64,000 nt of DNA from Clostridiales bacterium (GCA_021201475.1 JAJQEV010000120.1:1-64000); one strand, 5' to 3'; positions 12,936-41,600 are shown, counted from the stretch's first letter. A program made the numbers and translations. The notes: generated by a model from the letters alone, not told the origin.

Positions 12936-12989
12936 AGATGGATAAATTATTGTATATCGTTCAGCACAATCACATAACTGCAATGGGTA

Positions 12990-13247
12990 TCAGGTAAGTA
13001 TCTTATCGGAGAGGAGATTCTCAAGTGGAACGCGCAACGCTCTGGCAAGTGATATAAAAACAGCTATAGAACAAGACTGATTATTATAACTCTCAATCCT
13101 GCCGATTGTTGAGCGACTCACACCCGACGCTTCCGCAAGCTGAATCTGATTCATTCCACGCAGGCATCTGTAATAGCGCAAGCGACTGCCAATGGCTGTA
13201 TAAACCGCATCATCTGGTGCTAAATCGTAGAAATCAAGCTGGTTCAT
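12990..13247 (-). CDS. XRE-family transcriptional regulator
   Basis: An 85-residue protein, MNQLDFYDLAPDDAVYTAIGSRLRYYRCLRG, followed by a textbook helix-turn-helix, MNQIQLAEASGVSRSTIGRIESYNNQSCSIAVFISLARALRVPLENLLS. The ATG has GGAGG ten bases upstream. It is a single-gene unit with its own terminator. It lies just beyond the end of the BREX operon and before the activator gene; what it controls is not visible. No dimerisation or sensor domain is present. Confidence 0.88.
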   Translation of the reverse strand: MNQLDFYDLAPDDAVYTAIGSRLRYYRCLRGMNQIQLAEASGVSRSTIGRIESYNNQSCSIAVFISLARALRVPLENLLSDKILT

Positions 13248-13483
13248 GACGGCATCTCCTCCTTCCCGAATTTCTTACTTAAATTATACAATCTCAGAGC
13301 CTTCCGTGCTGACCCATGTTTGACGCTTATGCGCCAATTCTGACGCATCGCTTTTTTTCAAGCTCTAAAACTGTAGATTTAAGCAGCATATGAAGCAGCA
13401 GTCATGTGATAGGCTGGCTTGACAACAGCCCATATTATCGCCCTGACTGCCTTGAGCGTCTCTGTCCCTGTAGATGAACAAGA

Positions 13484-13530
13484 ACAAAAAAATCCTGACA
13501 AGCTGATATTTTCATATCAGTCTGTCAGGA
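13484..13530 (-). terminator. Terminator of the BREX operon
   Basis: TCCTGACA (13493-13500) pairs with TGTCAGGA (13523-13530), with an inner CTGATAT/ATATCAG pairing around TTTC. On the minus strand it is followed by TTTTTTTGTT. It lies 36 bases past the last gene of the BREX operon. No gene is seen in the rest of the gap from 13248 to 13565. Confidence 0.88.
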
Positions 13531-13565
13531 CTTGACAATCAGATATAATTCGTAGTTATGCCGGA

Positions 13566-14474
13566 TCAAATTTTTCTCAAAATCACCTGTGTTTCCTCAA
13601 TAGGCGTCGGCACAGAAAATTTCATATGGTGTTCTACCGTCAATATCTCTCCAACAACCTCATTCCCGGCAATGGGAGACGGCACCAATACTGCATCGCC
13701 CTTTCGCAGAGAGCGGTCTTCGGTTCGATAGTAGACCTCCCTGTCCATATCGTGCAGCCTCACTTTGCAATAAACATAGACATGAAAATCATCATCCGCA
13801 AAGGGATCAACAGTATAACCGCAGGGAGCAGATGCTTCGTGCATGATCTCCTGGTCGGCATCCATTTCGGTGGTGTCTAAAGACTCATCATCAGAGAACT
13901 CGGCGTCTTCTTCCTCTGGCACGTCAATAGCAGATTCACGCGCCGCCTCCAGTGCCGCGTCATATTCATCCTCTGTTTCAAAGTCTTCTGGATCAGGGCC
14001 ATATTCTGAACCATCCTCGCAGAAACTGCGCCAAGCATATTTTTCAGCGCGAAGCGCCTCATTGTATTCATCACGGGTTTCGTAATCTTCAGGAGAGATG
14101 CCGTATTCAGCGCCGTCCTCGCAGTTGAGCCGCCAGGCATATCGGTTGTCGTTTGTATGTATGTACGACTCCATTGAGAACAGATCATCGTCCCCAGCTA
14201 CACCGTCATCATCGAAGGAACCCAACGCTCCAAGAACAGCGCCTGTCCTGATAATGTCATTGGTAGTTTTCATCCTGCCTGTGGCGATGCCCAGCGCAGA
14301 GACTTCATACGGATTGATTTTGCCTCTTGCCTTATAGTGATGTTTTTTCTCCATGCTGCCGGCGACAGCCGCCATAGCAAGCCCACCAGCCAGATCAATC
14401 ATGGTATTTAGCGGCTCAGGGCATTTCTTGCTCTTACGACGTTTTTTTGATGAACTTCGTTTATGCCTTGCCAT
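13566..14474 (-). CDS. Hypothetical protein with duplicated acidic repeat, last gene of BREX operon
   Basis: A 302-residue protein. It begins with a basic nuclear-localisation-like stretch (RHKRSSSKKRRKSKK), then a helical segment. At about residues 112-180 there are two copies of a 36-residue repeat: YAWRLNCEDGAEYGISPEDYETRDEY and YAWRSFCEDGSEYGPDPEDFETEDEY. An acidic linker follows, then a C-terminal beta domain (VYVYCKVRLHDMDREVYYRTEDRSLRKGDAVLVP...GEILTVEHH) like the DUF5839/PriA-N-type fold. The repeat unit occurs in many Firmicutes proteins of unknown role. It starts 21 bases after the brxL stop with AGGAGG upstream and precedes the operon terminator, so it is co-transcribed with BREX, but it is not a known BREX component. 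Confidence 0.8.
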   Translation of the reverse strand: MARHKRSSSKKRRKSKKCPEPLNTMIDLAGGLAMAAVAGSMEKKHHYKARGKINPYEVSALGIATGRMKTTNDIIRTGAVLGALGSFDDDGVAGDDDLFSMESYIHTNDNRYAWRLNCEDGAEYGISPEDYETRDEYNEALRAEKYAWRSFCEDGSEYGPDPEDFETEDEYDAALEAARESAIDVPEEEDAEFSDDESLDTTEMDADQEIMHEASAPCGYTVDPFADDDFHVYVYCKVRLHDMDREVYYRTEDRSLRKGDAVLVPSPIAGNEVVGEILTVEHHMKFSVPTPIEETQVILRKI

Positions 14475-14495
14475 AGAAACACCCCTCCTTGCGGT

Positions 14496-16559: not shown

Positions 16560-16585
16560 AGATAACCATCTCCCGTATCGTATAA

Positions 16586-23805: not shown

Positions 23806-26800
23806 TTATAATTCTATGTTTACAATGGTGTCATCGTCCAACTGAGCCAGCAGGGATTTCCGCAGTTCAGCCACATACTTTTCCACGTCCTCCGGGCTTT
23901 CCAGCCGCCAGGAAGATGTTCCGGCAACCTTCTTCATGGAGAGGTTACGGGTTGTCCGCACCTTGTATTCAACCGGCGGTTCAGAGACCATGGGCTGATC
24001 GCCGCCCTGTTTCTTTTCCTGTTCTCTCCGGCGACGAGCTTCTTCCGCAGCTTTTTTCCGGGCAAGCTCGGCATCCAGCGCATCCATCTCATTGAGAAGC
24101 CGAAGTTTCAGCGCGTCTGCCTTGTCCGCAAATCCACGGAGGAGGGAGACATTGTTGCACCGTTCAGCGCCGTCCCTAATCTCTGCAAACTGGTCAAGAT
24201 AACGCTGACGCTTAGAGGCTTCATATTCCTTGCCTTTCAGGACTTCCAGCACTCTGGCCCGCGCCTGGTCAATGGTGTCCAAAACCGGCCCGGTTTCTGC
24301 ATCCAGCACCTTCATATAGGCATTGGTGAACTTGTCGCGCAACTCTGGCAGTTTCGGAATATCCCGATAGGGGCTGGGCTTACGGACGATGGAGCGCAGC
24401 TGGGCGACCACATCCTCCAGCTCCTGATCCACGATATAGGTTTTGCTGTCCTCATAAATGGCCAGCACATCCAGCACACGGGTGAAGATTTCCTTCTGTT
24501 CGCCACCAAAGAAGGCTTTTACCGGCTCATAGTCTTCAGCAAATTCGTAAAACTCATCCTGCCGTTTAGAAACCGTCTGGAAGAACTCCAGCGGAGTCTG
24601 AATCTGGAGAACAGATTGCAACAGGCGCTTTCCGGTAGCTAACACCTCTTTGCCAGGGTACTTGTAAGCGCGATATTCTGGCTCCAGCCGCTCGATTTCA
24701 TGCAGCGTATTTCCACTGTAGCGCTGGAAGGTCTTCATCACGGTGTCCTCGTCCTCTGCGGAGGAAGTGCCATGGAACAGCTCCTTCATCACATCCCGAA
24801 CGGCCTTTTTATCTTTGTCGGAAACACGAATACGCTCCTCCATCAGCAGCTTTTCTGTGAAGGCTTTCTTCGTGATGTAGCCGATGATTTCCTCCTCGGA
24901 CTTATTCATCATGGTGACGCTGGCTCCGTTCACGGTAAATGCCAGGTCGCCCCGCTTAAACAGACGTGCCACCAGCCAGTGAACATCATCCTCCACAAAA
25001 CCATAGGGAGCCTTCATGAAGCGGTCTTTAACCGTCTTCATGGAGGTTTTCATATGTATCCGGGAGTTTCCGGCGATAAAGCTGAGTACATCGTCCAGAG
25101 CATGGCCGTTCGTCTCGGAACCGCCCTCCAGCCCAAGAGAAAGTTGATTGGTGACTTTGAACATCTTGCGGATGTCTGCCTCACCCATCGCAGCCTCAAT
25201 GTAGGACAGCTTGTGATAAACGGTCTGCACCAGACGGCCAATCGCCTCGTTGATACGGCTGTTGACTTCCTTTGCCTGCACACGCGCGATGTCGCCGTTG
25301 ACATAGATGGTGGCGTCCTTCAGGCTCTCGGTCAGGTACAGCTTAGCGTTGCCGTTGCGTTCTCGCATTTCCACGCGCTTTGCTTCTTTAATGGTTTCAT
25401 ACTTCGTCAGCTGAGTAGAAGTATTCAGCCGCAGGAACTTCTCAATTTTCAGATAGACCCGGATTTCCTCCAGGAACGCGGCGTCATTGGGCAGTACCAC
25501 CAGCACTTCACGCCCCTGGCCGGACATCATGCGCAGAGTGGCATCGTCCATGCCGCCCTCATACCAAGGAGTCAGGATGCGCAGGCCAATGTCATACTTC
25601 TGGTTTGCTTTGTAAGGCCGGTCGTCCACCGTCTGGTTAAAGGAAAAGGCGTAACGGCCTCCAAACGCAGGATACTGATACTTTTTCTCCTTGAAAATGT
25701 CCTCGAAGATCATCTCGGACACCTTATTGATGACCTCGGCCATCTCCACGTTCTGGCTGTCGATTTCCCGGTTAATTTCCTGCTCCTCATCGGTCAGGAA
25801 TACATAGAGATTGCCGTTTTTCTGCACCAGCATCTGCCGCATGAGGACTTTCAGTGCTTCTTCAACACGGCCTTTCAGCTCAATGCGGTCATCGTCAATA
25901 TGTTCGATCATCAGGCTGGTGATGTTTTCCAGGTTGGATTCGATCTCCAGCACATACTTAATCATAAACAGCGTCTTTAAGACGTTGATGGCAAATACAT
26001 CCTTCTCTTTGCCCTCCGGGTTGATCTGGCTATTGTCATAAGCCCGGATAATCACGCCCTTGTGGGAGTGGTCGAGGAAGTTCTCCAGAGCGTCATAGAA
26101 TTTATGGAACGGCACAATCGCGCCGGTTTCTTCGTTCATCAGCTGCATGGCTGATTCCTTGAACAGCGCCAGCATGGAGCGCTCACCCTCGGACAAATGC
26201 TTGCCGGATGCACCGTGAGTACGGATAGAGGTCAGAACACTGGCCAGCAGATTAAACTGGTATGGCACAAAAGGATAGACCTCGGAAAAGTTATCAGCGG
26301 AGGAGTAGAGCTTTTTCTCCACGCCGTCGTTGAAGACAATCAGGTTCTTGATAACCGTTGCTTTCTGGTCATAATACAGCCGCAGAGACTGTGCCGCCGT
26401 ATCCGTCTTTTCCAGTATTCTCTTTTTGATAACGGCATCCACGTTGGCAGAGGACAGGGACAGACGGGTGTCAAAGCGCCCCTGAATCTTAGAGAAATCG
26501 TTGCCCTTCACCTGGGTAATGGAGTCAATGTCCTGCTGGCTGGTCACGATGACCCATGCCTTACCCATACACTCCTTGCCCAATTCCTCTGTCACGGTCT
26601 GGAGGTTGAGCATGAGCTTAGAATTATCACCGATGTACTGGCCGACTTCATCCACCAGGAACACGACATGATGATTATTGCCCTTCTTGTCAATATACGA
26701 CTTAACACGCTTTGCGAAGTCTTCAATGCTGATCTGATAAGGCTCTACGGCCTTTTCACACCAATTCCGAGCAGCGGATTCGCTCATAAAGCCCATATCG

Positions 26801-27441
26801 GAAAGGACATCCACAACCGTATCCTGAATAAAATCGAAGTCCTGCCGGGAGTTTTCCCAAGCTGAACCATATTCTTCTTCAAAAGCGGCTTTGAACTCAT
26901 CCAACCGACCCTCATCAGACAGCCGACGCTCCAGATCGGCTAGATGGGGCATAGAGCCGCAGAAGCCCTGCATCTCATTGAACACCTTCAGGAAGACATT
27001 CACGATAGCATCTTTGTCCTGCTTGCTGCCCGAATCGCTCTTAGAGTCAATGTTGAACAGGATCACGTCAGTTGGAGTGTCTGCCGCCAGCTTCATATCG
27101 GCCAGCACCATGCGGTCAACGATTTTATCATCGTCAATAAAATAGTCCAGAGCCTTTTTGTCCCCAACCGCCTGATTCTTCAACAGGTAGGACAGGATTT
27201 TCAGAAAGTGAGATTTACCACTTCCGAAGAAGCCGGAAATCCATACCCCCATTTTGGGGGTCATCCCGACAATGCCCTTTTTATAAGCGGCAAAGAAATC
27301 TGCAAAATGCCGCTGCAACTCCTTTGTAACGACGTATTCCTCCAGCTCCTGCGCGACATTCGTTTCTTCTCCCTGGCCTACGATGATAACGCCCTGAATT
27401 TCACGGTCGATTTCCTTACGGAACATTTCTTTAATCAGCAT
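23806..27441 (-). CDS. brxC: BREX ATPase BrxC
   Basis: A 1211-residue P-loop ATPase (DUF499-related BrxC/PglY family). The start MLIKEMFRKEIDREIQGVI at 27441 has AGAGG seven bases upstream. Walker A GFFGSGKSHF spans residues 70-79 and a Walker B VVFLVDEVGQYIG lies near 257. The middle holds helical and winged-helix-like parts; residues about 1120-1165 are a charged coil (LARKKAAEEARRRREQEKKQ). BrxC is thought to couple ATP use to recognition of foreign DNA together with PglX and PglZ. It begins 17 bases after the brxB stop. The usual length is about 1200 residues. Confidence 0.95.
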   Translation of the reverse strand: MLIKEMFRKEIDREIQGVIIVGQGEETNVAQELEEYVVTKELQRHFADFFAAYKKGIVGMTPKMGVWISGFFGSGKSHFLKILSYLLKNQAVGDKKALDYFIDDDKIVDRMVLADMKLAADTPTDVILFNIDSKSDSGSKQDKDAIVNVFLKVFNEMQGFCGSMPHLADLERRLSDEGRLDEFKAAFEEEYGSAWENSRQDFDFIQDTVVDVLSDMGFMSESAARNWCEKAVEPYQISIEDFAKRVKSYIDKKGNNHHVVFLVDEVGQYIGDNSKLMLNLQTVTEELGKECMGKAWVIVTSQQDIDSITQVKGNDFSKIQGRFDTRLSLSSANVDAVIKKRILEKTDTAAQSLRLYYDQKATVIKNLIVFNDGVEKKLYSSADNFSEVYPFVPYQFNLLASVLTSIRTHGASGKHLSEGERSMLALFKESAMQLMNEETGAIVPFHKFYDALENFLDHSHKGVIIRAYDNSQINPEGKEKDVFAINVLKTLFMIKYVLEIESNLENITSLMIEHIDDDRIELKGRVEEALKVLMRQMLVQKNGNLYVFLTDEEQEINREIDSQNVEMAEVINKVSEMIFEDIFKEKKYQYPAFGGRYAFSFNQTVDDRPYKANQKYDIGLRILTPWYEGGMDDATLRMMSGQGREVLVVLPNDAAFLEEIRVYLKIEKFLRLNTSTQLTKYETIKEAKRVEMRERNGNAKLYLTESLKDATIYVNGDIARVQAKEVNSRINEAIGRLVQTVYHKLSYIEAAMGEADIRKMFKVTNQLSLGLEGGSETNGHALDDVLSFIAGNSRIHMKTSMKTVKDRFMKAPYGFVEDDVHWLVARLFKRGDLAFTVNGASVTMMNKSEEEIIGYITKKAFTEKLLMEERIRVSDKDKKAVRDVMKELFHGTSSAEDEDTVMKTFQRYSGNTLHEIERLEPEYRAYKYPGKEVLATGKRLLQSVLQIQTPLEFFQTVSKRQDEFYEFAEDYEPVKAFFGGEQKEIFTRVLDVLAIYEDSKTYIVDQELEDVVAQLRSIVRKPSPYRDIPKLPELRDKFTNAYMKVLDAETGPVLDTIDQARARVLEVLKGKEYEASKRQRYLDQFAEIRDGAERCNNVSLLRGFADKADALKLRLLNEMDALDAELARKKAAEEARRRREQEKKQGGDQPMVSEPPVEYKVRTTRNLSMKKVAGTSSWRLESPEDVEKYVAELRKSLLAQLDDDTIVNIEL

Positions 27442-27458
27442 TTCAGTACCTCTTTCCA

Positions 27459-28037
27459 TCACTTCACGAGCTTGAAAGCCCGATAGTAATTGTCGTCTTT
27501 TATCTCGTTAAACAGGATCAATTCCTGCTCATTGTAAGTTCCAGGGAAGAACAGCACCACCGGCACCCTGACAAATGCCTGATGCAGATTGTTCAGCACC
27601 TTATGGGAACGCAGGATAGGATAGCATTTCCCGATTCCGGTCAGAAACACAACCGCATTCTCCGGTGTATGGTCTTTGATGTACTGGACAATCAGGCTGT
27701 CATCATCGTTGATCTTCATGGAATTGTTGACCGCTTTGGTAATCCGGTCAAAGCCACGTTTCTGTTCAAAACCATAGCACTTGTCCATAAAGTTCTTATC
27801 AATCAGAAAGTCTATGATGATGTCATAGAGATCGAATACAACCAAGTCAAATCCGTCTGTTCCTTTCTGATTTTTGTTCTGTAGATACGCGATGCGCTCA
27901 CGAACCTCCAGTTCCTGTTCCGGGGGATAATCAAAAATCCAGTAATTCACTTCATTCGCACGTCCGTTGCTGCTACGAAAGGAAGGCTTCCGGATCGCCT
28001 TTTCCATTTCGTCCAGCCGTGCAGCCAGGTCTGCCAT
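27459..28037 (-). CDS. brxB: BREX protein BrxB (DUF1788)
   Basis: A 192-residue protein beginning MADLAARLDEMEKAIRKPSF. The sequence matches DUF1788: NEVNYWIFDYPPEQELEVRERIAYLQNK...FDLVVFDLYDIIIDFL...NAVVFLTGIGKCYPILRSHKVLNNLHQ...VPVVLFFPGTYNEQELILFNEIKDDNYYRAFKLV. BrxB is a small core BREX protein of unknown activity needed for defence. Its ATG overlaps the TAA of brxA (TAATG), so the two are translationally coupled. The strand order VVLFFPGTY suggests a P-loop-like or Rossmann-like fold without a Walker motif. Confidence 0.94.
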   Translation of the reverse strand: MADLAARLDEMEKAIRKPSFRSSNGRANEVNYWIFDYPPEQELEVRERIAYLQNKNQKGTDGFDLVVFDLYDIIIDFLIDKNFMDKCYGFEQKRGFDRITKAVNNSMKINDDDSLIVQYIKDHTPENAVVFLTGIGKCYPILRSHKVLNNLHQAFVRVPVVLFFPGTYNEQELILFNEIKDDNYYRAFKLVK

Positions 28038-28639
28038 TATCTCACCCCCGTCAGTGCCTTTACGAGAACACCCATGTCATGCGCATTCAGCCACCGCTCA
28101 AACACTGGGTCTAAAATCGGTCTGAATATCTTTCTTGTTTCTTTTGCCTTGTCCGTGATACCGGCTTCATAGAGCATGGTTTTATAGCAGCGCCCCAGAC
28201 GGTTCAGCGTGATGTCCGTCCATTCTGCCACCTTTTCATTCTGCTGCTGTTTGTCCTTAAAGAAAATCCGGACATCACTGTCAGCCAGCTCATTGCTGCC
28301 GATAATCATTTTTTCCCTGACGACTTCATACACAAAGTCAAAAAACAGCGTATCACTGGCCATTACAGCCGCAAGATTAAATAATTTCTGCGTGGACAGG
28401 TCGCTTTCCGAAAAAACAGAATAAAAGCTGTCATCCAGACTCTGCACCCGCGTTGTTACTGTACTACAAATCTGTTTCGCTCTCGCGGGGGTAGATGTCG
28501 CAAAAAGGTTCTCCTCCTGGCTTAGCTGTTTGATGTCCTCGTATGTTTTGCCTTCGCCACGAAGCTCGACGACCTTCCGAAATTCCATAAACCAGAAGGA
28601 CAGTTTAACGGCTCCCGCGCTGTATTCTTTCCGCTCCAT
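28037..28639 (-). CDS. brxA: BREX protein BrxA (DUF1819)
   Basis: A 200-residue protein, first core gene of the BREX operon. The pattern YSAGAVKLSFWFMEFRKVVELRGEGKTYEDIKQLSQEENLF...RAKQICSTVTTRVQSLDDSFYSVF...FNLAAVMASDTLFFDFVYEVVREKMIIGSNELADSDVRIFFKDKQQQNEKVAEW is the DUF1819 family. Known BrxA proteins bind DNA through winged-helix-like folds. GAGGAG lies eleven bases before the ATG. It starts 24 bases after the small XRE gene, which therefore shares the operon promoter. Confidence 0.94.
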   Translation of the reverse strand: MERKEYSAGAVKLSFWFMEFRKVVELRGEGKTYEDIKQLSQEENLFATSTPARAKQICSTVTTRVQSLDDSFYSVFSESDLSTQKLFNLAAVMASDTLFFDFVYEVVREKMIIGSNELADSDVRIFFKDKQQQNEKVAEWTDITLNRLGRCYKTMLYEAGITDKAKETRKIFRPILDPVFERWLNAHDMGVLVKALTGVR

Positions 28640-28902: not shown

Positions 28903-29142
28903 CGTCAAACCTCACTTATCCTTGTCTGCTATGAAAAACAATAATTGAATCTACCGCTGACCATTATAACATAGATACGAGAAAAAGCGAAGAAGGAATT
29001 TTGCGTTCTCAGAAGGTTTTTGGGCGAGCGCAACAAGAATTTCGGCGCATGAATTGATTTTTATCCTGCCAATTTTGCATTATCTATGGTATACTGTACT
29101 CGGCTACTGGACTCAGATGAAATACGATTGGAGGTGAACCGC
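28903..29142. promoter_or_regulatory. Divergent promoter region between BREX and polymerase operons
   Basis: The 240-base gap serves the BREX operon leftward and the Y-family polymerase operon rightward. On the plus strand TATACT near 29089-29094 is a good -10 box; the -35 (CTGCCA, 18 bases upstream) is weak. No gene is seen. No LexA/DinR-type box (CGAACNNNNGTTCG) was found, so an SOS response is not obvious. Confidence 0.45.
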
Positions 29143-30651
29143 TTGTCAGACCGTTCTTATATTGCCATCGACCTGAAATCTTTCTACGCATCAGTGGAAT
29201 GTGCGGAGCGTGGGCTTGATCCGTTGACCACCAATCTGGTCGTTGCAGATAAAAGCCGGACAGAAAAAACAATCTGCCTTGCGGTGTCACCATCCCTGAA
29301 ATCTTTTGGCATCTCCGGGCGCGCAAGGTTATTTGAAGTCGTCCAGCGTGTGAAGGAAGTCAACAACGACCGGCTGCGCCGCGCACCCGGACATACTTTT
29401 ACCGGTTCATCAAGCGACATCAATGAACTGAACGCAGACCCGTCCCTGTCACTTGACTATATCGTGGCCACCCCGCAGATGGCACACTACATCCAGCGCA
29501 GCACGGAGATTTATCAAGTCTATCTCCGTTACATTGCTCCGGAAGACATTCACGTTTACAGCATTGACGAGGTATTCATGGATGTAACGAATTATCTGCG
29601 GACGTATAATCTCACGCCCCACGAGTTGGCTATGAAAATGATCCAAGATGTCTTGAAAGAAACCAGCATTACTGCCACTGCCGGAATCGGCACAAACCTT
29701 TATCTCTGCAAGATCGCAATGGACATCGTGGCAAAGCACATTCCTGCCGACAAAGATGGTGTGCGCATCGCAGAGCTGGATGAGATGAGTTATCGGCAAA
29801 AGCTGTGGGCGCATCAGCCTATCACGGACTTTTGGCGCGTGGGACGTGGTTATGCCAGACGGCTGGAAAAAATGGGGCTGTACACGATGGGAGACATCGC
29901 AAGGTGTTGTCTCACCAGCTACGGAGAAAATCAGCTGTACAAGGAGTTTGGTATCAATGCAGAATTGCTGATTGATCACGCATGGGGCTGGGAGCCTTGC
30001 CGTATCTCCGACATCAAATCGTACAAGCCGGAGAATAACAGCATCAGCTCCGGGCAGGTATTGCAGTCTCCATATGAATTTGAAAAGGCGAAGCTGGTGG
30101 TCAGAGAAATGGCGGATGCACTTTCACTCGATCTTGTGGACAAGGGAATGGTGGCCGACCAGATCGTTCTCACCATTGGCTATGACATTGAAAACCTGAC
30201 TGACCCTGCGCGGCAAAAATCATATAAAGGCGAAGTCACCACTGACTATTACGGCAGAAAAATTCCGAAGCAAGCTCATGGGTCCATTAACCTGGGGAGG
30301 CAGACGGCATCCACAACACTTATCACAAAAGCGACGATGGAGCTGTTTGATCGCATTGTTGACCGGAACCTTTTAGTGCGCCGGATGTATGTGGTTGCCA
30401 ACCATGTTGTCAGTGAAGATATGGTCAACCCACCGGAGCCGGAACAGCTTGATTTATTTACTGATTACGGCGCTCTTGAGAAACAGCGTGAGAAGGAACA
30501 GGCAGAACTGGACAGAGAGAAACGCAGGCAAAAAGCGGTTCTGGAAATTCAAAAGAAGTTCGGAAAGAACGCGCTGCTGAAAGGTATGAATCTTGAGGAA
30601 GGAGCCACAGGCCGAGATCGCAATGCGCAAATCGGTGGTCACAAAAAATAG
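29143..30651 (+). CDS. Y-family DNA polymerase (UmuC/UvrX-like)
   Basis: A 502-residue translesion DNA polymerase. The start is set at a TTG (29143) because GGAGG lies eight bases before it; the frame opens earlier without a ribosome site. The catalytic carboxylates are present: AIDLKSFYASVECAERG (first aspartate) and VYSIDEVFMDVTNYL (the SIDE motif). Steric and finger motifs LVVADKS, TEKTICLAVSPSLKSFGISGRARLFEV and ATAGIGTNLYLCKIAMD follow, then the helix-hairpin-helix thumb and little finger. The tail QLDLFTDY resembles a sliding-clamp binding motif. It copies past DNA damage with low fidelity. A YolD-like gene follows at 12 bases, the usual pair on mobile elements. Confidence 0.93.
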   Translation: MSDRSYIAIDLKSFYASVECAERGLDPLTTNLVVADKSRTEKTICLAVSPSLKSFGISGRARLFEVVQRVKEVNNDRLRRAPGHTFTGSSSDINELNADPSLSLDYIVATPQMAHYIQRSTEIYQVYLRYIAPEDIHVYSIDEVFMDVTNYLRTYNLTPHELAMKMIQDVLKETSITATAGIGTNLYLCKIAMDIVAKHIPADKDGVRIAELDEMSYRQKLWAHQPITDFWRVGRGYARRLEKMGLYTMGDIARCCLTSYGENQLYKEFGINAELLIDHAWGWEPCRISDIKSYKPENNSISSGQVLQSPYEFEKAKLVVREMADALSLDLVDKGMVADQIVLTIGYDIENLTDPARQKSYKGEVTTDYYGRKIPKQAHGSINLGRQTASTTLITKATMELFDRIVDRNLLVRRMYVVANHVVSEDMVNPPEPEQLDLFTDYGALEKQREKEQAELDREKRRQKAVLEIQKKFGKNALLKGMNLEEGATGRDRNAQIGGHKK

Positions 30652-32276: not shown

Positions 32277-35165
32277 TCACAGACCATACTTTTTCAAGAT
32301 GTACTGGAAGTAATTCTCCAGTTCATATTTCGCCTCGTTCGGGATGCGCTGATATTTCAGAACCTCCGGGATAACAACAGCGGATGTGTTTTTGTTATCG
32401 GAAGTGATATGAAAGACAACTCTTTTCCGGCCATCCAGGTGCAGATTTTTTATCTCGTATCCATTGTCCAACCAACATTGACTGATGTTCATAAAGCCCG
32501 TCCGATACCAATACTCTTTTCGCAGCGCGGTGGCTCCGAGCGGAACCCCCATGATTTCCTCAATCTGCGAAAAGGTGAGCGTGACAGAATTTTTATCACA
32601 GGTGCGGAAAAATTCAGAGAGAGCATAATACTTCTGACCAATCGGTTTACGTTCTTCCTCCAGTTGTAAAAGCAAATCCATAACTTCATCGAGGGAAGAC
32701 GGTAGGCTTTCTGTATCGACATAATCGAACGAGGAATTCATACATCTTTTGTGGACATAGGCTTTTCGCTTCACTCTGCTCGGCTGGCTTTCGTCAACGT
32801 CCACGAGCGTTTTTTCCTCATCGCGCAGGATACTCCTGCCGCAGTAATAGCACTTTCCATTTTGCCTGTTCCAGATAGAGCGGTATACGCCTGTGACACT
32901 GAGTATTTGCCTTTCCGCAGTCCTGCTCTCCAGATAGTCAAATTCGATATATGGATTGAGATTTGTTTTGACGGGATTGTATGGATAGAAAAGAGAGTCT
33001 GACATAAATTTCACTCTGACTTCCTTTTTGTCTGTAAGGGCATAGCAATGCCGTCCCTCATAATCCACATACCAATATTTTTCCAATATCTTTTCCCGCG
33101 TCCACTTCGGATGTTTCTGCTCACAAAGCTGGAGCAGTAATGCCGATATGTAGACATCCATCTGACGAAAGGCAGCGGAAGCCTCGGATACTTTATGATA
33201 CGTCACCCAGCCATCAATCTTTTTGTTAATTTTCGCTATCAACGATTTCTGAGAACCAGTATAACCCTCTATGGTTTCCTTCATGGATGTCATGAAGCGT
33301 TCAACCGCAGAGTCCGATGGCCGCGCATATAGTTGATCCCCGCGCTTTTCATATGTCCTCGACATGAAAGTAAAACCATCTTTGATATTGATAACACGGC
33401 TTTTCTCTGTAGACAGTTCCAGACCACGTTCACCTAAAAAATCGCGAATCACTCGCTTTATAACATTCGCAGTTTCTTCACTTCGCACAGCGATGATAAT
33501 ATCATCAGCATAGCGGAGCAGATTGCCGTTGGCATAATCAATATCGCCATTGGGGTACAACCGGCTGAAAATATATTCTTGCAGACCGTCCAATACCATA
33601 TTTGCGATGATGGGGGAAATGGAGCAGCCAATGCCGATTCCCACATCCATCGGGAACAGTTCTCCCGCAAAGACATATCCCGCGCCGAGAAATTCCCTCA
33701 GTACATTCTCCGCCATGGGGATGTGCTTCAGTATCCAATCGTGGCTGATGTTTTCATAGCACTTTCGGACATCAGCAATAAAAGCCCATTCTGGTGCGCC
33801 CTCACCGGAAAATGCAGAGATGATATATTCATTCATGTCGTATTGGGAGCGCCCCTTCCGATAAGCGAAAGACTTCCTGTCTCCCCACGACTCAGCAATC
33901 GGATCAAGAGCATACGCATACAGTGTCTGCATGGCACGATCATAATAGGTTTCAACATGGACGCGGCGCTGTTTGCCTTGCTTGCTCTTAATGAGGAGCA
34001 GACGCGAAGGAAGCGCACGGTAGCCCTTTGATGTAAGCGATAGTGCAGCCGTCATCTTCTCCTCAGAAGTCATCCATTTTATACGGTCAACACCGGAACC
34101 AGCCGCCGTGCTGCATACATGACGAACAGCAAGGAGCTTTGCATCAATGGAGAATACGATTTTCTTCTGCCACTTTTCTATCAGGTCAGGGCTGTGAGTA
34201 TATGCGGATTTTGCGAGTGCCATCTGCATTGTCTGGAGATGTTCCTCCGCTGCATTCCAGTCTATGCTTTCCCACAGTCCCGCCAAATCAGTAAATTTCG
34301 TATTTCTGAAAGGAATACGTCGCGTCTCCATGTCAATGAGATCATTATATTTGTACTTTACCGGTCTGGGATTTTCCTGAACGGGTGCCTTTTCGCCTGC
34401 CGATAAATCAATATCGAGCATGATCGGGCAATGGTCTGAACCGTAAACATCGGTCAGCATTGTCGATTCATGGATATTGCCAGCAAGTGATTCCGATGCA
34501 AGAAAATAATCAAGACGCCACCCACGGTTTTCCTCACGTTTGTGGAGGCGATTTGACCACCAGGAGAACTTTCCTTTTTCATCAGGATGAATCTGCCGGT
34601 AGCAGTCAACAAAACCGCTGTTTATCAACGCTATAAGATTATCCCGTTCTTCGGAACTAAAACCTTCGGCATTCCATTCCTGCCAGTTGCTTTCACTGTA
34701 AATATCCTCATCAGCTATCGGGACATTGAAGTCCCCACATACAACAACGGGCTTTTTTCGATCCAGCCTTGTCAAATATTCCTGCAATGCTTCATCCCAG
34801 TCAGCGCGGTAATCTCTGCGCTTCCCAGACCGTTGCGAATTGGGGAAGTAGCAGTTGACGAAATAAAACGACTTGTATTCCAGAGTTATAATACGGCCTT
34901 CCGTATCAAAGTATGGATTGCCAATTCCCCGATCAACAGTCACCGGCGTGTATTTTGTGAGTATAAGGGTGCCGGAATATCCTTTTCTTCCGTCACAAAA
35001 ACTCCAGTAGGCTTCGTACCCGCCAAGTTCCGCCAGAAGGTATGGCTCATTTACCTTTGTCTCCTGGAACGCATATATGTCTGCGTCATATTTGCGAAGG
35101 AATGTCGAGAGGCCATGATTCCATGTGGCACGAAGCCCGTTGACATTCCATGATATGAATTGCAT
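32277..35165 (-). CDS. Exonuclease III - reverse transcriptase - zinc module fusion protein
   Basis: A 962-residue fusion; the ATG at 35165 (MQFISWNVNGLRATW) follows GAGGTG. Residues 1-255 are a complete exonuclease III/AP endonuclease domain: N7, E35 (FQE), D145-N147 (GDFNVP), D219 and D244-H245 (SDH). About 385-610 is a reverse transcriptase like those of group II introns: RVHVETYYDRAMQTLYAYALDPIAE, FAYRKGRS, motif A FIADVRKCY (D465), motif B GIGCSISPIIANMVLDGL and RYADDII (D554, D555). A maturase-type thumb follows (IDGWVTYHKVSEASAAFRQMD). C772/C775 with H805/C808 form a zinc site like HNH, but the first His of HNH is replaced (VDVD). The last ~110 residues (LTFSQIEEIMGVPLGATALRKEYWYRTG...WLDNGYEI) resemble the DUF7662-type domain. 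No intron RNA is seen around it. Confidence 0.9.
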   Translation of the reverse strand: MQFISWNVNGLRATWNHGLSTFLRKYDADIYAFQETKVNEPYLLAELGGYEAYWSFCDGRKGYSGTLILTKYTPVTVDRGIGNPYFDTEGRIITLEYKSFYFVNCYFPNSQRSGKRRDYRADWDEALQEYLTRLDRKKPVVVCGDFNVPIADEDIYSESNWQEWNAEGFSSEERDNLIALINSGFVDCYRQIHPDEKGKFSWWSNRLHKREENRGWRLDYFLASESLAGNIHESTMLTDVYGSDHCPIMLDIDLSAGEKAPVQENPRPVKYKYNDLIDMETRRIPFRNTKFTDLAGLWESIDWNAAEEHLQTMQMALAKSAYTHSPDLIEKWQKKIVFSIDAKLLAVRHVCSTAAGSGVDRIKWMTSEEKMTAALSLTSKGYRALPSRLLLIKSKQGKQRRVHVETYYDRAMQTLYAYALDPIAESWGDRKSFAYRKGRSQYDMNEYIISAFSGEGAPEWAFIADVRKCYENISHDWILKHIPMAENVLREFLGAGYVFAGELFPMDVGIGIGCSISPIIANMVLDGLQEYIFSRLYPNGDIDYANGNLLRYADDIIIAVRSEETANVIKRVIRDFLGERGLELSTEKSRVINIKDGFTFMSRTYEKRGDQLYARPSDSAVERFMTSMKETIEGYTGSQKSLIAKINKKIDGWVTYHKVSEASAAFRQMDVYISALLLQLCEQKHPKWTREKILEKYWYVDYEGRHCYALTDKKEVRVKFMSDSLFYPYNPVKTNLNPYIEFDYLESRTAERQILSVTGVYRSIWNRQNGKCYYCGRSILRDEEKTLVDVDESQPSRVKRKAYVHKRCMNSSFDYVDTESLPSSLDEVMDLLLQLEEERKPIGQKYYALSEFFRTCDKNSVTLTFSQIEEIMGVPLGATALRKEYWYRTGFMNISQCWLDNGYEIKNLHLDGRKRVVFHITSDNKNTSAVVIPEVLKYQRIPNEAKYELENYFQYILKKYGL

Positions 35166-35211
35166 AGTACACCTCTTCACAAAACCAGCCTAAAGCGTGG
35201 CACTCCCTCTT

Positions 35212-35625
35212 TTAAGAACAAGCCCCAAGGGAATCTAAAATGCGCATTTCAGCTACGTTTAACCCCTTTAGTGCATTTGGGAATGTGACAATCAGGGAAA
35301 AGCCGAGGTCATTACTTGGCGAATAGAAAACAGCCACCCGGCGAAGATCGGATTTATCTGTGGCAGCGACCGCCAGTACCCCATAAAGGTTGGGCATCGA
35401 GATTAATTCTTTCCACTTGCGAACATCCGGCAGGGTACCTCCGCCATATTCACCATTTCTGGAAAAAGACAGCGATGCCGCTTCCCCTGTGGCCTTGCTG
35501 CTGGTGAAAAAGGTGACTTCGGGGTTCGTGAGGTCTTCCCGCAATAAAAAAGCGTAGAGTGCGGAGAACATTTTCTCCTTCGTTTCGTACTTGACTTTGT
35601 AGCCGTTCAAATCATTTTCTTTCAT
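35212..35625 (-). CDS. Hypothetical partner of the nuclease-RT fusion
   Basis: A 137-residue soluble protein, first gene of the two-gene unit with the nuclease-RT fusion (46 bases between them, same strand). It starts MKENDLNGYKVKYETKEKMFSALYAFLLREDLTNPEVTFF with AGAGAG upstream. It looks mixed alpha/beta (YGVLAVAATDKSDLRRVAVFYSPSNDLGFSLIVTFP). No family recognised. Because nothing else intervenes and the only upstream promoter region is the phased-repeat area, it is likely made together with the fusion protein and could be its regulator, cofactor or inhibitor. Confidence 0.75.
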   Translation of the reverse strand: MKENDLNGYKVKYETKEKMFSALYAFLLREDLTNPEVTFFTSSKATGEAASLSFSRNGEYGGGTLPDVRKWKELISMPNLYGVLAVAATDKSDLRRVAVFYSPSNDLGFSLIVTFPNALKGLNVAEMRILDSLGACS

Positions 35626-35989
35626 AGCTTTCTCTCTTTCGTAATAGGAATTTGGTCGCTAAGACGATTCCGCCAGCGACCGCTAATAAATATAGCACAG
35701 CCACACGATATATGAAAGGAAATGTCTTGAAATTACGACGTTTTTCAGGCTTGAAGCACTGAATATTTTTGTCGTTTGTTGTCGAATCACCTCATAGATT
35801 GTCGAATATACTCGAATTGCCTCGAAAAGCGTCGAACGATTTGTCTTGAGCAGTAACGCCTAAAATGGTAGGATAATGTCGAAGTGTCGAAAGATGGTTC
35901 GACAGTTAAAACTGATGAACTGTTCGCTCTCCTCCATTTTGTGTTACTACATCAGAATAATTGCTGTACGCCAGCAGGAAAGGACTACC
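35626..35989. promoter_or_regulatory. Divergent control region with a helically phased GTCG decamer tract
   Basis: This gap has no gene. Seven consecutive 10-base units start at 35771: GTCGTTTGTT, GTCGAATCAC, CTCATAGATT, GTCGAATATA, CTCGAATTGC, CTCGAAAAGC, GTCGAACGAT. GTCGAA recurs at 35878 and 35886, and an inverted copy TTCGAC lies near 35898. Ten-base spacing puts all copies on one face of the helix. On the plus strand GATAAT at about 35871 could be a -10 for the gene at 35990. On the minus strand only weak boxes precede the 137-residue gene. The same motif and phase occur at 32199-32238. Confidence 0.6.
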
Positions 35990-36416: not shown

Positions 36417-37826
36417 TTATCTGATAGGCTTCTTTTTCTGATCTTGCTGTCTATTCTGTTCTTCCTGTTCCTGTTGCATCTCGAAGAATACCTCCACATT
36501 GTGCCGTGCCTTCTGATATTCCTGCATCTCAGACCGGGCAGCGCGATATTCCGCGTAAGTCGCTTTTTTCTCCGCCAGCACCTGGGCATATTCCGCACTC
36601 AGGTCTTTGACCTTCGGCAGCTTTTTCACGCCCAGCTGGTCAAAGGCGTTTTTTGCCTCCTTGTGCAGTGTGATTTCAGTCCGGTTCGCCTCAAAGAACT
36701 TCTTGCTGTATCCGGACTTTCGATACTCTACATAGGTGTCCCTGGTCTTAGAATAGTTGATGATGTGGGTCTTGAGCGCGGCGATCTCTACCAGCCGCTT
36801 TTCGGATGCTTTCAGCCGGTCGCTGAGTTCATCAAACTGGGCGGAAGCGGCATCGGTTTTCTGTTGCAGATCATCCAGACTTTCAATGCCATGTTCCCGG
36901 ATGAAAATCATGGTCTGTGCCATCTGTTTCAGATTATAGACTGTCGCCCAGCGCTGGTAGCCGATGCCTTTGGTCTGCATCTTCTCATCAATATCCACCA
37001 GTAGATTGAACTTCGGTTTTCCATGAACCTGGCTGCTTTTGAATTTGGAGCGATGGGCTTTTTCACCCAGAAGCACCGCACGGATTTCCTCCTCGGTGTA
37101 GCCTTCTCCCAGGGAGCAGAACCGGATAAACCGCTTCTGGCCTTTGCCCCGGAGCGCGGTGTTCTTTCCTCGCTTCACCTCATAACCCTTTTGAGCAAGA
37201 AGCTGTAGAAATTCCTCGAAATCCTTCGGCTTTTGCTTCATGACAGCATCAATGTCCGCACAGATGGTATCCCGGAAGGTTTCTTTCTTTGGATACTCGG
37301 TGCGTTTCACTCGCTCCCGATAAGGCCTTTTCTCTATAATAGATAGCCCATGTTCAACACAGATAATATCACTGCATTTCTGTACGGCCAGACCGGACAG
37401 GTGGAAGTCCTTGAATTTTCGCTTGCAGTCGATGGTGGTGGAGTTGAAAATGATATGATTATGGATATGCGCCCGGTCTACATGGGTAGCCACGATGAAA
37501 GCGTGTTTCCCTTTGGTAAACCGCATGGCCAGCTCATAGCCGACCTTGTTTGCTTCCTCCGGCGTGATTTCCCCCGGCTTGAAGGATTGGCGTATCTGAT
37601 ACGCGATGACATTGCTTTTCTGCTGTCGCCCGGTGATGTGCTGGTACTGCCGTTTGGCAAGCAGAAATTCTTCATCCACGGTCATGGGGTCACAGGCATA
37701 CGCCGTGACCAGACTTCCTTTTGCCGTTTTTTCCGGGTTCTGCGCGTAGTCCGTCCGGTCACGCAGGCATTGCGCCAGCGTTTTCCCTTTATTCAGGTGC
37801 ATCGCGATCAGCCGCGTCGCCGCCAT
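36417..37826 (-). CDS. Conjugative relaxase (MOBP-like)
   Basis: A 469-residue relaxase that nicks the origin of transfer and pilots the strand. The metal-binding histidines lie in HVDRAHIHNHIIFNS (H120, H122, H124), and Y27 in RTDYAQNPEKT is a candidate catalytic tyrosine. The N-terminal domain covers about residues 1-190, then KGYEVKRGKNTALRGKGQKRFIRFCSLGEGYTEEEI and a long C-terminal coiled coil. The match is to the relaxase/mobilisation nuclease family of Clostridia ICEs. A terminator upstream means it has its own promoter or relies on read-through. It ends the transfer module before the cargo begins. Confidence 0.93.
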   Translation of the reverse strand: MAATRLIAMHLNKGKTLAQCLRDRTDYAQNPEKTAKGSLVTAYACDPMTVDEEFLLAKRQYQHITGRQQKSNVIAYQIRQSFKPGEITPEEANKVGYELAMRFTKGKHAFIVATHVDRAHIHNHIIFNSTTIDCKRKFKDFHLSGLAVQKCSDIICVEHGLSIIEKRPYRERVKRTEYPKKETFRDTICADIDAVMKQKPKDFEEFLQLLAQKGYEVKRGKNTALRGKGQKRFIRFCSLGEGYTEEEIRAVLLGEKAHRSKFKSSQVHGKPKFNLLVDIDEKMQTKGIGYQRWATVYNLKQMAQTMIFIREHGIESLDDLQQKTDAASAQFDELSDRLKASEKRLVEIAALKTHIINYSKTRDTYVEYRKSGYSKKFFEANRTEITLHKEAKNAFDQLGVKKLPKVKDLSAEYAQVLAEKKATYAEYRAARSEMQEYQKARHNVEVFFEMQQEQEEQNRQQDQKKKPIR

Positions 37827-37841
37827 ATAATCACCATCCCT

Positions 37842-37877
37842 TCAAAAAAAGAAAGAGCTGCCCGGTGAGGACAGCCC
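37842..37877 (-). terminator. Terminator between small membrane gene and relaxase
   Basis: GAGCTGCCC (37855-37863) pairs with GGACAGCCC (37869-37877) with wobbles around a 5-base loop. On the minus strand it is followed by TTTCTTTTTTT. It would reduce read-through from the membrane-protein gene into the relaxase gene, a likely control point. Confidence 0.75.
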
Positions 37878-37901
37878 ATAATAAAATCGTGTACTTTACT
37901 C

Positions 37902-38201
37902 TCATGAGTGCAGGAACCCGACCAGCGCGTCGGTCATGGTATCCAGCAATGTCTCCAATACAGCGGCGACGAACGTAACGGCCACACACAATGCCGCCAG
38001 GACAACCATCACCACAACGGAAGTCCACCACTGGTTTACAGCAGCGACCACGCCGCAGAGGATAATCACCAGGATAAAAAAGCCGATGATGTAGGAGGAA
38101 AGATTGTCCACGACCTTCAACAGCACTGATGCAACAGCGCAGATGAGGATCAGCGGAAGGGTCAGGAGCTTCAACGGGAGCTTTATGAGTGTCATCAACA
38201 T
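37902..38201 (-). CDS. Small membrane protein of the relaxase region
   Basis: A 99-residue hydrophobic protein starting MLMTLIKLPLKLLTLPLILICAVASVLL, with about three membrane segments (LLTLPLILICAVASVLLKVV; YIIGFFILVIILCGVVAAV; VVVMVVLAALCVAVTFVAAVLE). A TTG start at 38210 is also possible. Similar proteins sit between mobC and the relaxase in Clostridia ICEs; their role is unknown. It could anchor the relaxosome or belong to the secretion channel. Confidence 0.75.
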   Translation of the reverse strand: MLMTLIKLPLKLLTLPLILICAVASVLLKVVDNLSSYIIGFFILVIILCGVVAAVNQWWTSVVVMVVLAALCVAVTFVAAVLETLLDTMTDALVGFLHS

Positions 38202-38210
38202 GGCGGTCAA

Positions 38211-38357
38211 CCATCCTTTCTTTTCTTATGCCTTCATTATAAAGGCAGGGTATCAGACTGGCAATGATGTCGCCGGTCTATGTTTACGGCACAGCGGTTT
38301 GCTCCGCCATGCCGTTTTTTATAAAATCTCCGGTACAAAACCCGGACATTTGCGCTG
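38211..38357. other. Candidate origin-of-transfer region
   Basis: The 147-base gap between mobC and the small membrane gene holds a strong hairpin: ACGGCA..GCGG (38286-38297) with CCGC..TGCCGT (38304-38315), followed on the plus strand by TTTTTT. Relaxase and MobC normally act on an oriT close to their genes with such inverted repeats. No other non-coding stretch in the relaxase module is as structured. A plain plus-strand terminator is the alternative, although no plus-strand gene precedes it. No nick site can be named with confidence. Confidence 0.4.
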
Positions 38358-38696
38358 TCACTGGACAGTGGCAAGCCTTGTGAGTATCTCTTTACAGCTT
38401 ACCCACAAATCATCCAGACGGCGCTGCAAATCCTCTATATCCTCCGAATAGATACTCCCGGTTTCATGAGCCTTCTTTGTATACTGATTGAGGTTATTCG
38501 AGGCATAACGCAACAACTGCACCATCTGGGTCACATCGGTCAAATCCATATTGACACAGATGCCGTCCAGCGCCATCTTACGGATATAGGCGCTCATATT
38601 CTCCACGCCGATCTCGGCCATTTTCTCCTGTATGCGGTCACGCTCCGCCTGGGAGACGCGGAGCATGATCACTTTATCTTTCTGTTCAGTATCCAT
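38358..38696 (-). CDS. Mobilisation protein MobC
   Basis: A 112-residue relaxosome accessory protein. The ATG at 38696 follows AGGAGG by seven bases and overlaps the TGA of the giant methylase-helicase gene (ATGA). The N-terminus has the ribbon-helix-helix pattern (DKVIMLRVSQAERDRIQEKMAEIGVENMSAYIRKMALDG) followed by the MobC motif (LLRYASNNLNQYTKKAHETGSIYSEDIEDLQRRLDDLW). MobC proteins bind oriT and help the relaxase open the strands. It is coupled to the DNA-processing genes upstream and precedes the relaxase. Confidence 0.92.
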   Translation of the reverse strand: MDTEQKDKVIMLRVSQAERDRIQEKMAEIGVENMSAYIRKMALDGICVNMDLTDVTQMVQLLRYASNNLNQYTKKAHETGSIYSEDIEDLQRRLDDLWVSCKEILTRLATVQ

Positions 38697-41600
38697 CACA
38701 ATACCTCCTCGGAGTGCTGCTGTTCACCGGGCTTCCGGGGCGGCAGCGTCGCCGCCTTGCTGCGCAGGTCGGCCAGTACAGAGGGGCGGCTTTCCGTGCC
38801 GGATTCCGCATCGCGATCTCCATCCTCACGGACAGGTGCAGGACTGTCGTCCATATTCAGGGCAGCGTCCAGTTCCGCCAGCCGTGCGGATTTTTCCCGC
38901 AGCTCGGCTTCCTGGGGGAATGGTTTCCCAAGCTCCTGCTGTGCAGCTTCCATCTGGTTTTCCAGATTGGTCAGTTGTTCCTGCGCTTTCTCCAATCGCG
39001 CTGGGATACCCGCCAGGGCGTTATCCATACGGATCAGGTTGCCTCTGGCGTCAGTGCCGAGGGAAAGCCGGTGGCTCATGGCACCTTTCAGGGTCAGGTC
39101 AAATTCCTGCCGGAAGGTATCATAGGTGAGTTCCATCTGGAAGCCGCGATAGCTCCCCAGGTGCATCGGCTCCGTCCCGTGATAGGCTTTGCAGGCGGCA
39201 AGAAGCGCCTCGCCAGCTTTGAGTTTATCCGAAAACTGTTGTCCCCGAAGCTCCAGCCCGACAAATTGTTCCTTATCCTCCGGCAGCGGATGCGCTGCAA
39301 CGGTCTGGATGTCCTCTTCAAATCCGCGGATATTGCCCTTTGTCCGTTCAATCTCCTGCGGGAAGTGCTTTAACAGGCGATCTTCCAGCCGGTACTGTTG
39401 GCTCTGGTGGTCGGACTTCAATACTTTCAGCCGTGCCACCTCCACATCCAGGTCCATCTTTTCCCGGATCAGCGGATTACCAGCGCACAGCGCCTTGATC
39501 TCCGCGTAGGACAGGGCCTGCTCATCCACATCGTCACAGCTTCTCACCGGACTTTTGCTGGTCATGATCTGTGAGATGAAGCGCTGCTTGTTCTCTAGTG
39601 TCTGATACAAATAGGCATCGAAGGTGCCTTCGGTAACGTACTGGAAAATCTGTACGCGCTTGTTTCTGTTGCCTTGCCGGATAATACGCCCGTTTCTCTG
39701 GGTCATATCGGCAGGACGCCAGCCTACATCCAGATGGTGCGCAGCGATTAGCCTGTCCTGAACGTTGGTGCCAGCGCCCATTTTCTGCGTACTGCCAAGG
39801 AGAATCCGCACCTGGCCGGAGCGGACTTTGGCAAACAAGTCTTTTTTCTTCACCTCCGTGTCGGCATCATGGATAAAGGCAATCTCCTCATGGGGGACAC
39901 CCATCGCCTCCAGTTTGCCGCGAATATCGTCATAGACATTGAACGTGCCATCGCCCTTTGGCGTAGACATATCACAGAACAGAAGCTGTGTTGTCCGGTC
40001 GCCGGTGCCATCCTGCCATATCTGGAAGACGTTATTTACACAGGCGTTGAGCTTACTGCCGGGATCGTCGGGGAGCAACGGATTCATCAGCCTCTGGTCA
40101 AGACCGATCTTCCTGCCGTCTGATGTGATGCAGAGCATATTGTCAACGGAGGCATCTACTGCGCCAGCGTGAACCTTCGCCGCCCGTTCGGACAGCGACG
40201 CCACCATTTCCTTTTGAATTTCTGAGGGTTGCACCACAATCGTCTGGAAGTCGGCCTCCGGCACCGGCAGATCAAGCTGGTCGCTGGTTTTAATATCGGC
40301 CACCTCTTTGAACATGGTCATCAGTTCCGGCAGGTTGAAGAAGCGGGCAAATCTCGTCCGCGCCCGGTAGCCTGTCCCTTCGGGACTAAGCTCGATGGCT
40401 GTGGTTGTTTCCCCAAAGGTTGACGCCCAGCTGTCGAAGTGGGTCAGACCCTTTTGCTGGAGGGTGCTGTACTGGAGGTAACGCATGACGGTGTAAAGCT
40501 CTGTCATGGAGTTACTGACCGGTGTGCCGCTCGCAAAAACGACGCCGCGCCCGCCGGTAATCTCGTCCATGTAGCGACATTTCATAAACATATCTGAACT
40601 GCGTTGTGCCTCGGAGGTAGATAAACCGGCCACGTTCCGCATTTTCGTATACAAGAAAAGGTTTTTGTACGCTTGGCTCTCGTCTACAAAGAGCCGATCT
40701 ACGCCCAGCTGCTCAAAGGTAATTACATCATCCTTCCGCTCTGTAGATGTCAGTTTGTTCAGCCTGGCCTGCAAGGATTTCCGGGTTTTCTCCATCTGCT
40801 TGATGGTGAAGCTCTCGCCGCGGCTGTATTTCAGCTCCGCAATCGCGTCCTCGATGTCCTCGATTTGCTCCCTCAGCTGTCGCTCCTGACGCTCTGCGGA
40901 GATGGGGATTTTCTCGAACTGGCTGTGGCCAATGATGACCGCATCATAGTCGCCGGTAGCAATCCTGGCGCAAAACTTCTTACGCCGGGAGGTTTCAAAG
41001 TCCTTTTTGGTCGTCACCAGCAGCTTTGCGCTGGGATAGAGCCGTAAAAACTCATTCGCCCATTGCAGCGTCAGGTGGTTGGGAACCACGAACATGGACT
41101 TCTGACACAGGCCCAGGCGCTTGCTCTCCATAGCCGCCGCAGCCATCTCGAACGTCTTGCCTGCCCCCACTTCGTGCGCCAAAAGGGTGTTGCCGCCGTA
41201 AAGGACGTGTGCAATGGCGTTTCTCTGGTGTTCCCGTAGCATAATCTCAGGGTTCATCCCCACGAAATGAATGTGGGAGCCGTCGAACTCACGGGGACGG
41301 GTGCTGTTGAACAGCTCATTGTACTTCTGGCAGAGCGCCTCCCGGCGCTTCGGGTCTTTCCACACCCAATCCTGAAAGGCGTCCTTGATCGCCTGCTGTT
41401 TCTGCTGGGCGAGGGTCGTTTCCTTCTTATTCAGCACACGTTTTTGCTTTCCGTCTGCATCCTCAACGGTGTCATAGATACGGACATCCTTCAGATTTAA
41501 GGTGTCCTCCAGTATCCGGTAGGCATTGGCGCGGCTCGTGCCGAAGGTCATATTTGCCGCCACATCGTCATAGCGGGGCTGTGTCTTACCAGTGATCCGC

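Follow-up and report, generated by a model that had tools for sequence, protein, structure and literature searches.

Reverse transcriptases (RTs) of the group II type extend 3′ ends on RNA or DNA, and an HNH endonuclease is optional in mobile group II introns, being missing in some lineages. In APE-type LINEs, a group II-related RT is paired with a nuclease that resembles AP endonucleases. Enzymes of the exonuclease III (ExoIII) type cut abasic sites, remove 3′ blocking groups and digest recessed strands, and the ExoIII of E. coli also possesses RNase H activity. Retrons and the DRT2, DRT9 and DRT10 systems are accompanied by a conserved adjacent ncRNA. In bacteria, the G2L4 RT, which has a YIDD active site and an RT3a plug and lacks the D and En domains as well as any nuclease, repairs double-strand breaks by annealing microhomologies (PMC12337344). 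Surveys of bacterial RTs name nitrilase, primase, Cas1, HEPN and other fusion partners, and the word 'exonuclease' is absent from them (PMC8934634, PMC4244168).

Here, we describe a gene in which an ExoIII is fused to a group II-like RT, found in a stretch of 64,000 nucleotides from a Clostridiales bacterium (the window; positions are counted from its first letter). No bacterial ExoIII-RT fusion was found in Pfam, NCBIfam, PADLOC, PHROGs or open-licence papers, in agreement with an earlier sequence-only reading of this DNA, which named no characterised bacterial counterpart.

Layout of the ExoIII-RT gene and its protein

The gene is an uninterrupted 962-aa open reading frame on the minus strand, with its ATG at 35165 and its stop ending at 32277, exactly the extent that the sequence-only reading had given it (Table 1). 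The 137-aa ORF upstream is a possible operon partner of ExoIII-RT, and it was not seen upstream of ExoIII-RT in the homologous loci. Just upstream of this ORF, six of the window's 23 TTCGAC hexamers fall within 123 bp (35781-35903), a cluster that is possibly an operator array; the window-wide number of the hexamer is not above chance.

Table 1 Features of the window, in window coordinates, and forms of the gene in related loci
Feature	Position	Strand	Basis
BREX-type genes	23806-28639		Reading of translations, plasmid match to brxC
Y-family polymerase	29086-30651		PF00817
ExoIII-RT fusion gene, 962 aa	32277..35165	-	ORF, domain profiles, homologues
DUF7662-like C-terminal module, residues 846-916	32418..32630	-	E=2e-5, just below cutoff
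Degenerate HNH, residues 765-810: C772, C775, H805, C808 kept, catalytic histidines lost	32736..32873	-	
GIIM / thumb (maturase X) domain, residues 622-698	33072..33302	-	Pfam/NCBIfam
Reverse transcriptase fingers/palm, RVT_1, residues 394-600	33366..33986	-	E=4e-23
YADD active site, residues 552-555 (RYADD 551-555)	33501..33512	-	Sequence, alignment
RVT_N (N-terminal extension, NTE, of group II-type RT), residues 298-377	34035..34274	-	Pfam/NCBIfam
Linker, residues 254-297, low model confidence	34275..34406	-	Predicted structure
Exonuclease III / AP endonuclease domain, residues 1-253, catalytic residues intact by sequence	34407..35165	-	
Probable ribosome-binding site AAGAGGTG, four bases 5′ of ATG	35170..35177	-	Sequence
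137-aa ORF, no family assigned, co-directional, 46 bp upstream of ExoIII-RT	35212..35625	-	
Relaxase-type gene and very large helicase/methylase gene	36417-47368		Reading of translations
L085 (G683:C70): fused, 961 aa			
L100 (IMG/VR): fused, 932 aa from ExoIII-like start			
L121, with near-identical second sighting L123: fused, 941 aa			
L122: fused, 941 aa			
L066 and L099: ExoIII and RT as two genes, 4 nt overlap of stop/start (GTGA)			
L084: contig ends before ExoIII position			
L067/L199: partial second sighting of L066 type			

The N-terminal domain matched the NCBIfam model TIGR00633 over residues 1-253 with E=2e-76 and 257 bits, well above the cutoff of 99, and N7, E35, Y106, D145, N147, D219, D244 and H245 were invariant in an alignment that set five ExoIIIs of the family beside the host xth and a further seven bacterial ExoIIIs. 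The ExoIII domain, previously described as apparently intact, is thus complete with respect to these eight catalytic residues, and the nearest solved structures are B. subtilis ExoA and H. pylori XthA. The host genome carries its own separate xth, 46% identical to the ExoIII of the fusion, indicating that the fusion is additional to the housekeeping enzyme.

Behind the ExoIII domain, RVT_N, RVT_1 and GIIM domains were found together with RYADD, as the description of an RT with RYADD and a maturase-like thumb had anticipated. The group II RT/maturase model TIGR04416 scored 222 bits against a curated cutoff of 300, making this RT a relative of the intron proteins and, by that rule, not a member. 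The motif A aspartate and a YADD/FADD site were kept in 8/8 family RTs, with YADD in the window and FADD in the other seven. The residue five past the motif A aspartate, which is the usual steric-gate position, was tyrosine in 8/8 family RTs and phenylalanine in 12/12 intron RTs. Loss of the xQG glutamine, considered as a family signature from six members, was dropped because SQG is kept in L121 and L122.

With 386 bits, against 122 for the next best match, a profile of the RT gave an unbroken alignment to 6me0, an intron protein of the Tel4h type, running through the D region into the HNH, where 'CPVCG...IHHILPK...IHANCH' of 6me0 aligns with 'CYYCG...LVDVDES...VHKRCM' of the window. Zinc ligands were retained and the HNH catalytic histidines were missing in all eight family members, so that what had been taken for a zinc domain is instead the relic HNH of an intron protein. 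A weakened HNH was also present in some control introns (L058, L063), indicating that HNH decay is not unique to the ExoIII-RT family. On the sequence evidence, the enzyme with which intron proteins attack target DNA is dead in this family, and a nuclease of an unrelated kind is joined at the opposite end; we infer that ExoIII replaced the lost HNH nuclease. The C-terminus, read earlier as a defence-type domain, proved to be a DUF7662-like module that also occurs on a serine recombinase and is not a recognised defence domain. This large serine recombinase, whose C-terminus resembles the module, is encoded at 806-2725 of L088 (G683:C60), and the module was found on further proteins as well, which hints that enzymes of mobile elements have a DNA-binding part in common.

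AlphaFold2, run with 40 aligned sequences, returned a structure with a mean pLDDT of 84 and a pTM of 0.56, in which ExoIII, RT and thumb were modelled confidently and the linker (262-290) and much of 757-843 were not, the mutual orientation of the domains not being readable. The top Foldseek matches were the group II intron proteins 8fli and 6me0 (TMt 0.88-0.91), followed by ExoIII/APE structures (5cfe, TMt 0.94).

Relatives, phylogeny and the search for intron RNA

Residues 263-962 (RT plus C-terminus) served as the useful homologue query because the ExoIII part finds every xth, and the whole-protein query against genome contigs returned only housekeeping ExoIII. Seven further distinct relatives were recovered, four fused, two as overlapping genes and one cut by a contig end. 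The gene boundary of the two-gene loci, L066 and L099, falls at the place of the window's linker, and a 4-nt stop/start overlap of this kind is a usual sign of translational coupling. ExoIII was fused to, or overlapping with, the RT in 7/7 evaluable members, the window included. An assembly or sequencing artefact was ruled out, since the fusion recurs in the independent loci L085, L100, L121/L123 and L122; the concern that two separate genes had been fused only here by error is likewise refuted, as the halves are separate in L066 and L099 yet adjacent and overlapping. Within the order, ExoIII-RT was present in 3/394 genomes, in single copy in the genome of the window, and no copy besides that of the window was found in 391 class, 200 family and 319 phylum genomes (strict cutoffs, overlapping samples).

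Comparison of L121 with L122 gave a pN of 0.12 and a pS of 0.73 overall, with pN/pS values of 0.10/0.77 for ExoIII, 0.09/0.72 for the RT and 0.22/0.75 for the C-terminus; synonymous sites are near saturation, so the pN:pS ratio is known only to be small. At the sequence level, this points to strong purifying selection along the whole chain, with the entire chain evidently maintained as a protein.

No Rfam family was found at E<=1 in the window between 28 and 39 kb, and nothing group II-like was found by Rfam in L066, L084-L087, L097, L099, L100 or L121-L123, where L121 and L123 gave eukaryotic matches only, far under gathering scores, which were disregarded. Group II RNA was detected at 13/13 non-family RT control loci, that is, 12 intron-type relatives and the top-scoring RT outside the family in the phylum search, which carry group-II-D1D4-7 and/or domain V, so the earlier observation that no intron RNA is apparent holds. 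A pemK cis-regulatory RNA motif (RF02913) was present away from ExoIII-RT in L099 (2198-2262, minus strand) and L084 (5472-5534, minus strand).

In a maximum-likelihood tree, built without L121 and L122 (found later) and without G2L, UG and CRISPR RTs, the six family RTs formed one clade with support 100/100 and a stem of 1.67 changes per column, adjoining introns of the IIB/Tel4h type, with GsI-IIC and the E. rectale protein lying far off. L121 and L122 agree with the six tree members in having the C-terminal region, a dead HNH and the motif A tyrosine. The idea that the RT might fall inside active group II introns with an intron RNA nearby fails, as the tree and the RNA searches set the family apart from its intron-bearing relatives. 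A group II-type RT with a maturase domain and no intron RNA is a feature of the G2L type and, with NTE, palm, thumb and D region kept and IIB/Tel4h-type intron proteins nearest, this RT is best read as a domesticated group II-like RT.

A DRT/UG or retron assignment was ruled out on scores, no class model fitting over its length: the best named UG/DRT model reached 60 bits in the window and 72 bits in L100, over the shared RT core, against 222 bits for the group II model in the window, and NCBIfam Drt3a reached 40 bits against a cutoff of 200. No conserved adjacent ncRNA was visible between L121 and L122, the only informative pair, and none was matched by Rfam.

Genomic setting and candidate functions

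ExoIII-RT of the window lies between the BREX-type genes and Y-family polymerase (PF00817) on one side and the relaxase-type and helicase/methylase genes on the other, consistent with the mobile-element setting with BREX and a translesion polymerase proposed from the sequence. Serine recombinases adjoin the L066 and L084 copies, and a tyrosine recombinase lies directly downstream in L121 (Pfam) and L122 (by eye), with RecD/YqaJ-like genes upstream. Neighbours in L100 are a Y-family polymerase and a nuclease/helicase pair, and those in L099 are a LexA-like gene and an hsdM-like gene (by eye). When a constant partner gene besides ExoIII was sought across loci, a SLOG/YpsA gene was seen in three only, co-directional and 144-167 bp upstream (L099 6606-7076 and L121 4602-5090, both by Pfam; L122 4622-5113), which could encode a sensor working with ExoIII-RT or be cargo common on such elements.

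The nuclease/helicase pair downstream of the L100 fusion is accompanied, within 10479-18063, by PAPS-reductase-like and cysteine-desulfurase-like genes (by eye), and a PAPS-reductase-like gene is also found nearby in L085 (9896-10849); sulfur-based DNA modification is a possible role for such genes. In L027, L058, L063 and L118, IIB-type group II introns lie inside or beside a large helicase gene carried by integrative elements. This gene is apparently of the same kind as the helicase gene at 38696-47368 of the window, and the RT could have been recruited in elements of this sort. A Haliscomenobacter plasmid (L116, NC_015511.1 34976-39511) has the gene for a group II intron protein placed between umuD and the gene for a Y-family polymerase.

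The explanation we favour, tentatively and at a little short of an even chance, is that ExoIII-RT is a mobile-element-borne enzyme in which the domesticated RT and ExoIII would together repair ends or fill gaps in damaged or broken DNA. ExoIII would incise abasic sites, or clean or recess blocked 3′ ends, of damaged, replicating or incoming mobile-element DNA and pass a 3′-OH to the RT, which would then fill in or anneal microhomologies as the G2L4 RT does. ExoIII may additionally strip RNA from hybrids, the zinc and DUF7662 parts would bind DNA, and a single chain with both activities could make, and then use, a 3′ end. This proposal is consistent with the catalytic residues kept in both ExoIII and RT, the linkage of ExoIII in all evaluable members, the loss of the HNH histidines throughout the family, the single clade whose members, unlike the 13 controls, are missing group II RNA, and purifying selection, as well as with the DNA-metabolism neighbours, namely the Y-family polymerases in the window and L100 and the recombination genes in L121. 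Double-strand break repair by the G2L4 RT provides a precedent (PMC12337344). The RT of the family, however, has YADD/FADD in place of YIDD and retains the D region that G2L4 lacks, and ExoIII yields 5′ overhangs whereas classical microhomology end joining uses 3′ overhangs. The neighbouring repair genes may also be ordinary mobile-element cargo, and the nearby BREX and restriction genes suit defence equally.

Defence against phages or other elements is the main rival, possible if rather unlikely. As a single gene resembling the DRTs, ExoIII-RT would make cDNA or extend phage ends through its RT, while ExoIII would degrade or nick phage DNA or process the cDNA. The rare, patchy and mobile-element-borne distribution is compatible with such a role, as are BREX beside the window copy, the restriction methylase gene beside L099 and the SLOG gene directly upstream in three loci, and many bacterial RTs are defence enzymes. 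On the other hand, no DRT, UG, retron or Abi model was convincing over its own length (60-72 bits compared with 222), L121 and L122 are without a conserved neighbouring ncRNA, and mobile elements carry repair genes too.

An unlikely further role is that of a replication or transfer factor of the element itself, repairing or completing single-stranded DNA after conjugation or excision and having no general host role. Each flanked copy does lie amid mobile-element genes, these being the relaxase-type and very large helicase genes in the window and recombinases in L066, L084, L121 and L122, but the elements differ in integration type, most related elements are without ExoIII-RT, and no transfer gene is conserved beside it. 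Comparably improbable is an independently arisen bacterial counterpart of the LINE ORF2 protein (ORF2p), in which the APE-type nuclease would make the 3′ end that primes the group II-descended RT, either as a self-mobile retroelement or in an as yet undescribed RNA-to-DNA repair or defence pathway.

The narrower proposal of a bacterial LINE-like retroelement, whose ExoIII nicks target DNA and whose RT copies its own mRNA from the nick, is quite improbable. The domain order is that of LINE ORF2p (APE-type nuclease, RT, Cys-rich module), and Foldseek aligned the model to human LINE-1 ORF2p (9hdr) over 893 columns, but with poor geometry (TM 0.28, rmsd 22, 13% identity), and the ExoIII is nearest to bacterial ExoA and not to the LINE EN; as modelled, the likeness to ORF2p is a likeness of layout. 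Genome G683 holds four copies with different flanks, one intact (L085) and three of them broken mosaics. One copy is 5′-truncated, homology between intact and broken copies starts at the start codon, a 5′ leader is common to two copies, and one of the four copies runs into a gene that looks like DUF4942. Two 3′ fragments, at L086 2126-2151 and L087 about 10271-10246, are truncated at an identical point and preceded by one common 24-base leader, ATATCTGCTGCTTTTCACACCCTCGG, which the intact copy lacks; further upstream of it their sequences differ, and the L087 fragment interrupts an AraC-type-looking regulator gene. The G683 pattern might be the leavings of a moving unit. This multi-copy evidence for self-mobility is equivocal, coming from one genome and mostly broken copies, and no target-site duplication or 3′ tail was visible at the G683 copies. 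Against self-mobility also stand the single copy in the window's genome and the neighbours kept in L121 and L122, which indicate that the gene sits in a larger element.

Very improbable is an ordinary group II intron protein with a missed RNA, or a trans helper for introns elsewhere, for which the complete intron-protein domain set and the TIGR04416 score speak, since around the gene there is no Rfam match at E<=1 with the controls all positive (which rules out an intron protein in situ), the HNH is dead, the tree stem is long and separate, and the RT starts directly behind, or overlaps, ExoIII and so leaves no room for an intron 5′ half.

Comparison with known systems

Domesticated group II-like RTs are already known; the novelty here lies in the pairing with ExoIII, in the dead HNH and in the C-terminal module. 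The family, from gut bacteria and carried on mobile DNA, adds an architecture to the few such RTs described, and genome engineers might find a self-contained nuclease-RT enzyme of interest. Nuclease-RT pairing of the LINE type would seem to have arisen in bacteria too, with the HNH decaying and a bacterial ExoIII taken on, and both states are preserved in the family, as two overlapping genes and as one fused gene, making the logic of this pairing testable in a simple system.

The best fold match, the Thermosynechococcus IIB intron protein (Tel4h type, 6me0/8fli), has the same NTE, RT, thumb, D region and HNH alignment, whereas ExoIII-RT is without intron RNA, has lost the HNH histidines, carries tyrosine in place of phenylalanine in motif A, and has gained ExoIII in front and the DUF7662-like module behind. 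The G2L4 RT of Pseudomonas aeruginosa is likewise derived from group II RTs, lies outside introns, keeps the thumb and has a proposed role at DNA ends; ExoIII-RT differs in its YADD/FADD, its D region and its fused ExoIII. B. subtilis ExoA (5cfe) is 44% identical to the ExoIII half with all catalytic residues in common; the family's ExoIII differs in having an RT fused or coupled to it. RT-Cas1 and other bacterial RT fusions (nitrilase, primase, HEPN) also place an RT and a second enzymatic domain on one chain, but with a different partner, and no cas gene was recognised alongside ExoIII-RT. The ORF2 protein of APE-type non-LTR LINEs has the same order of AP-endonuclease-type nuclease, RT and Cys-rich module in one chain, so the ORF2-like layout recognised in the sequence-only reading agrees in having the AP-endonuclease-type domain N-terminal to the RT; ExoIII-RT is distinguished from it by the low identity of 13%, a bacterial ExoA-like nuclease, its additional occurrence as two overlapping genes and a mobility that is only putative.
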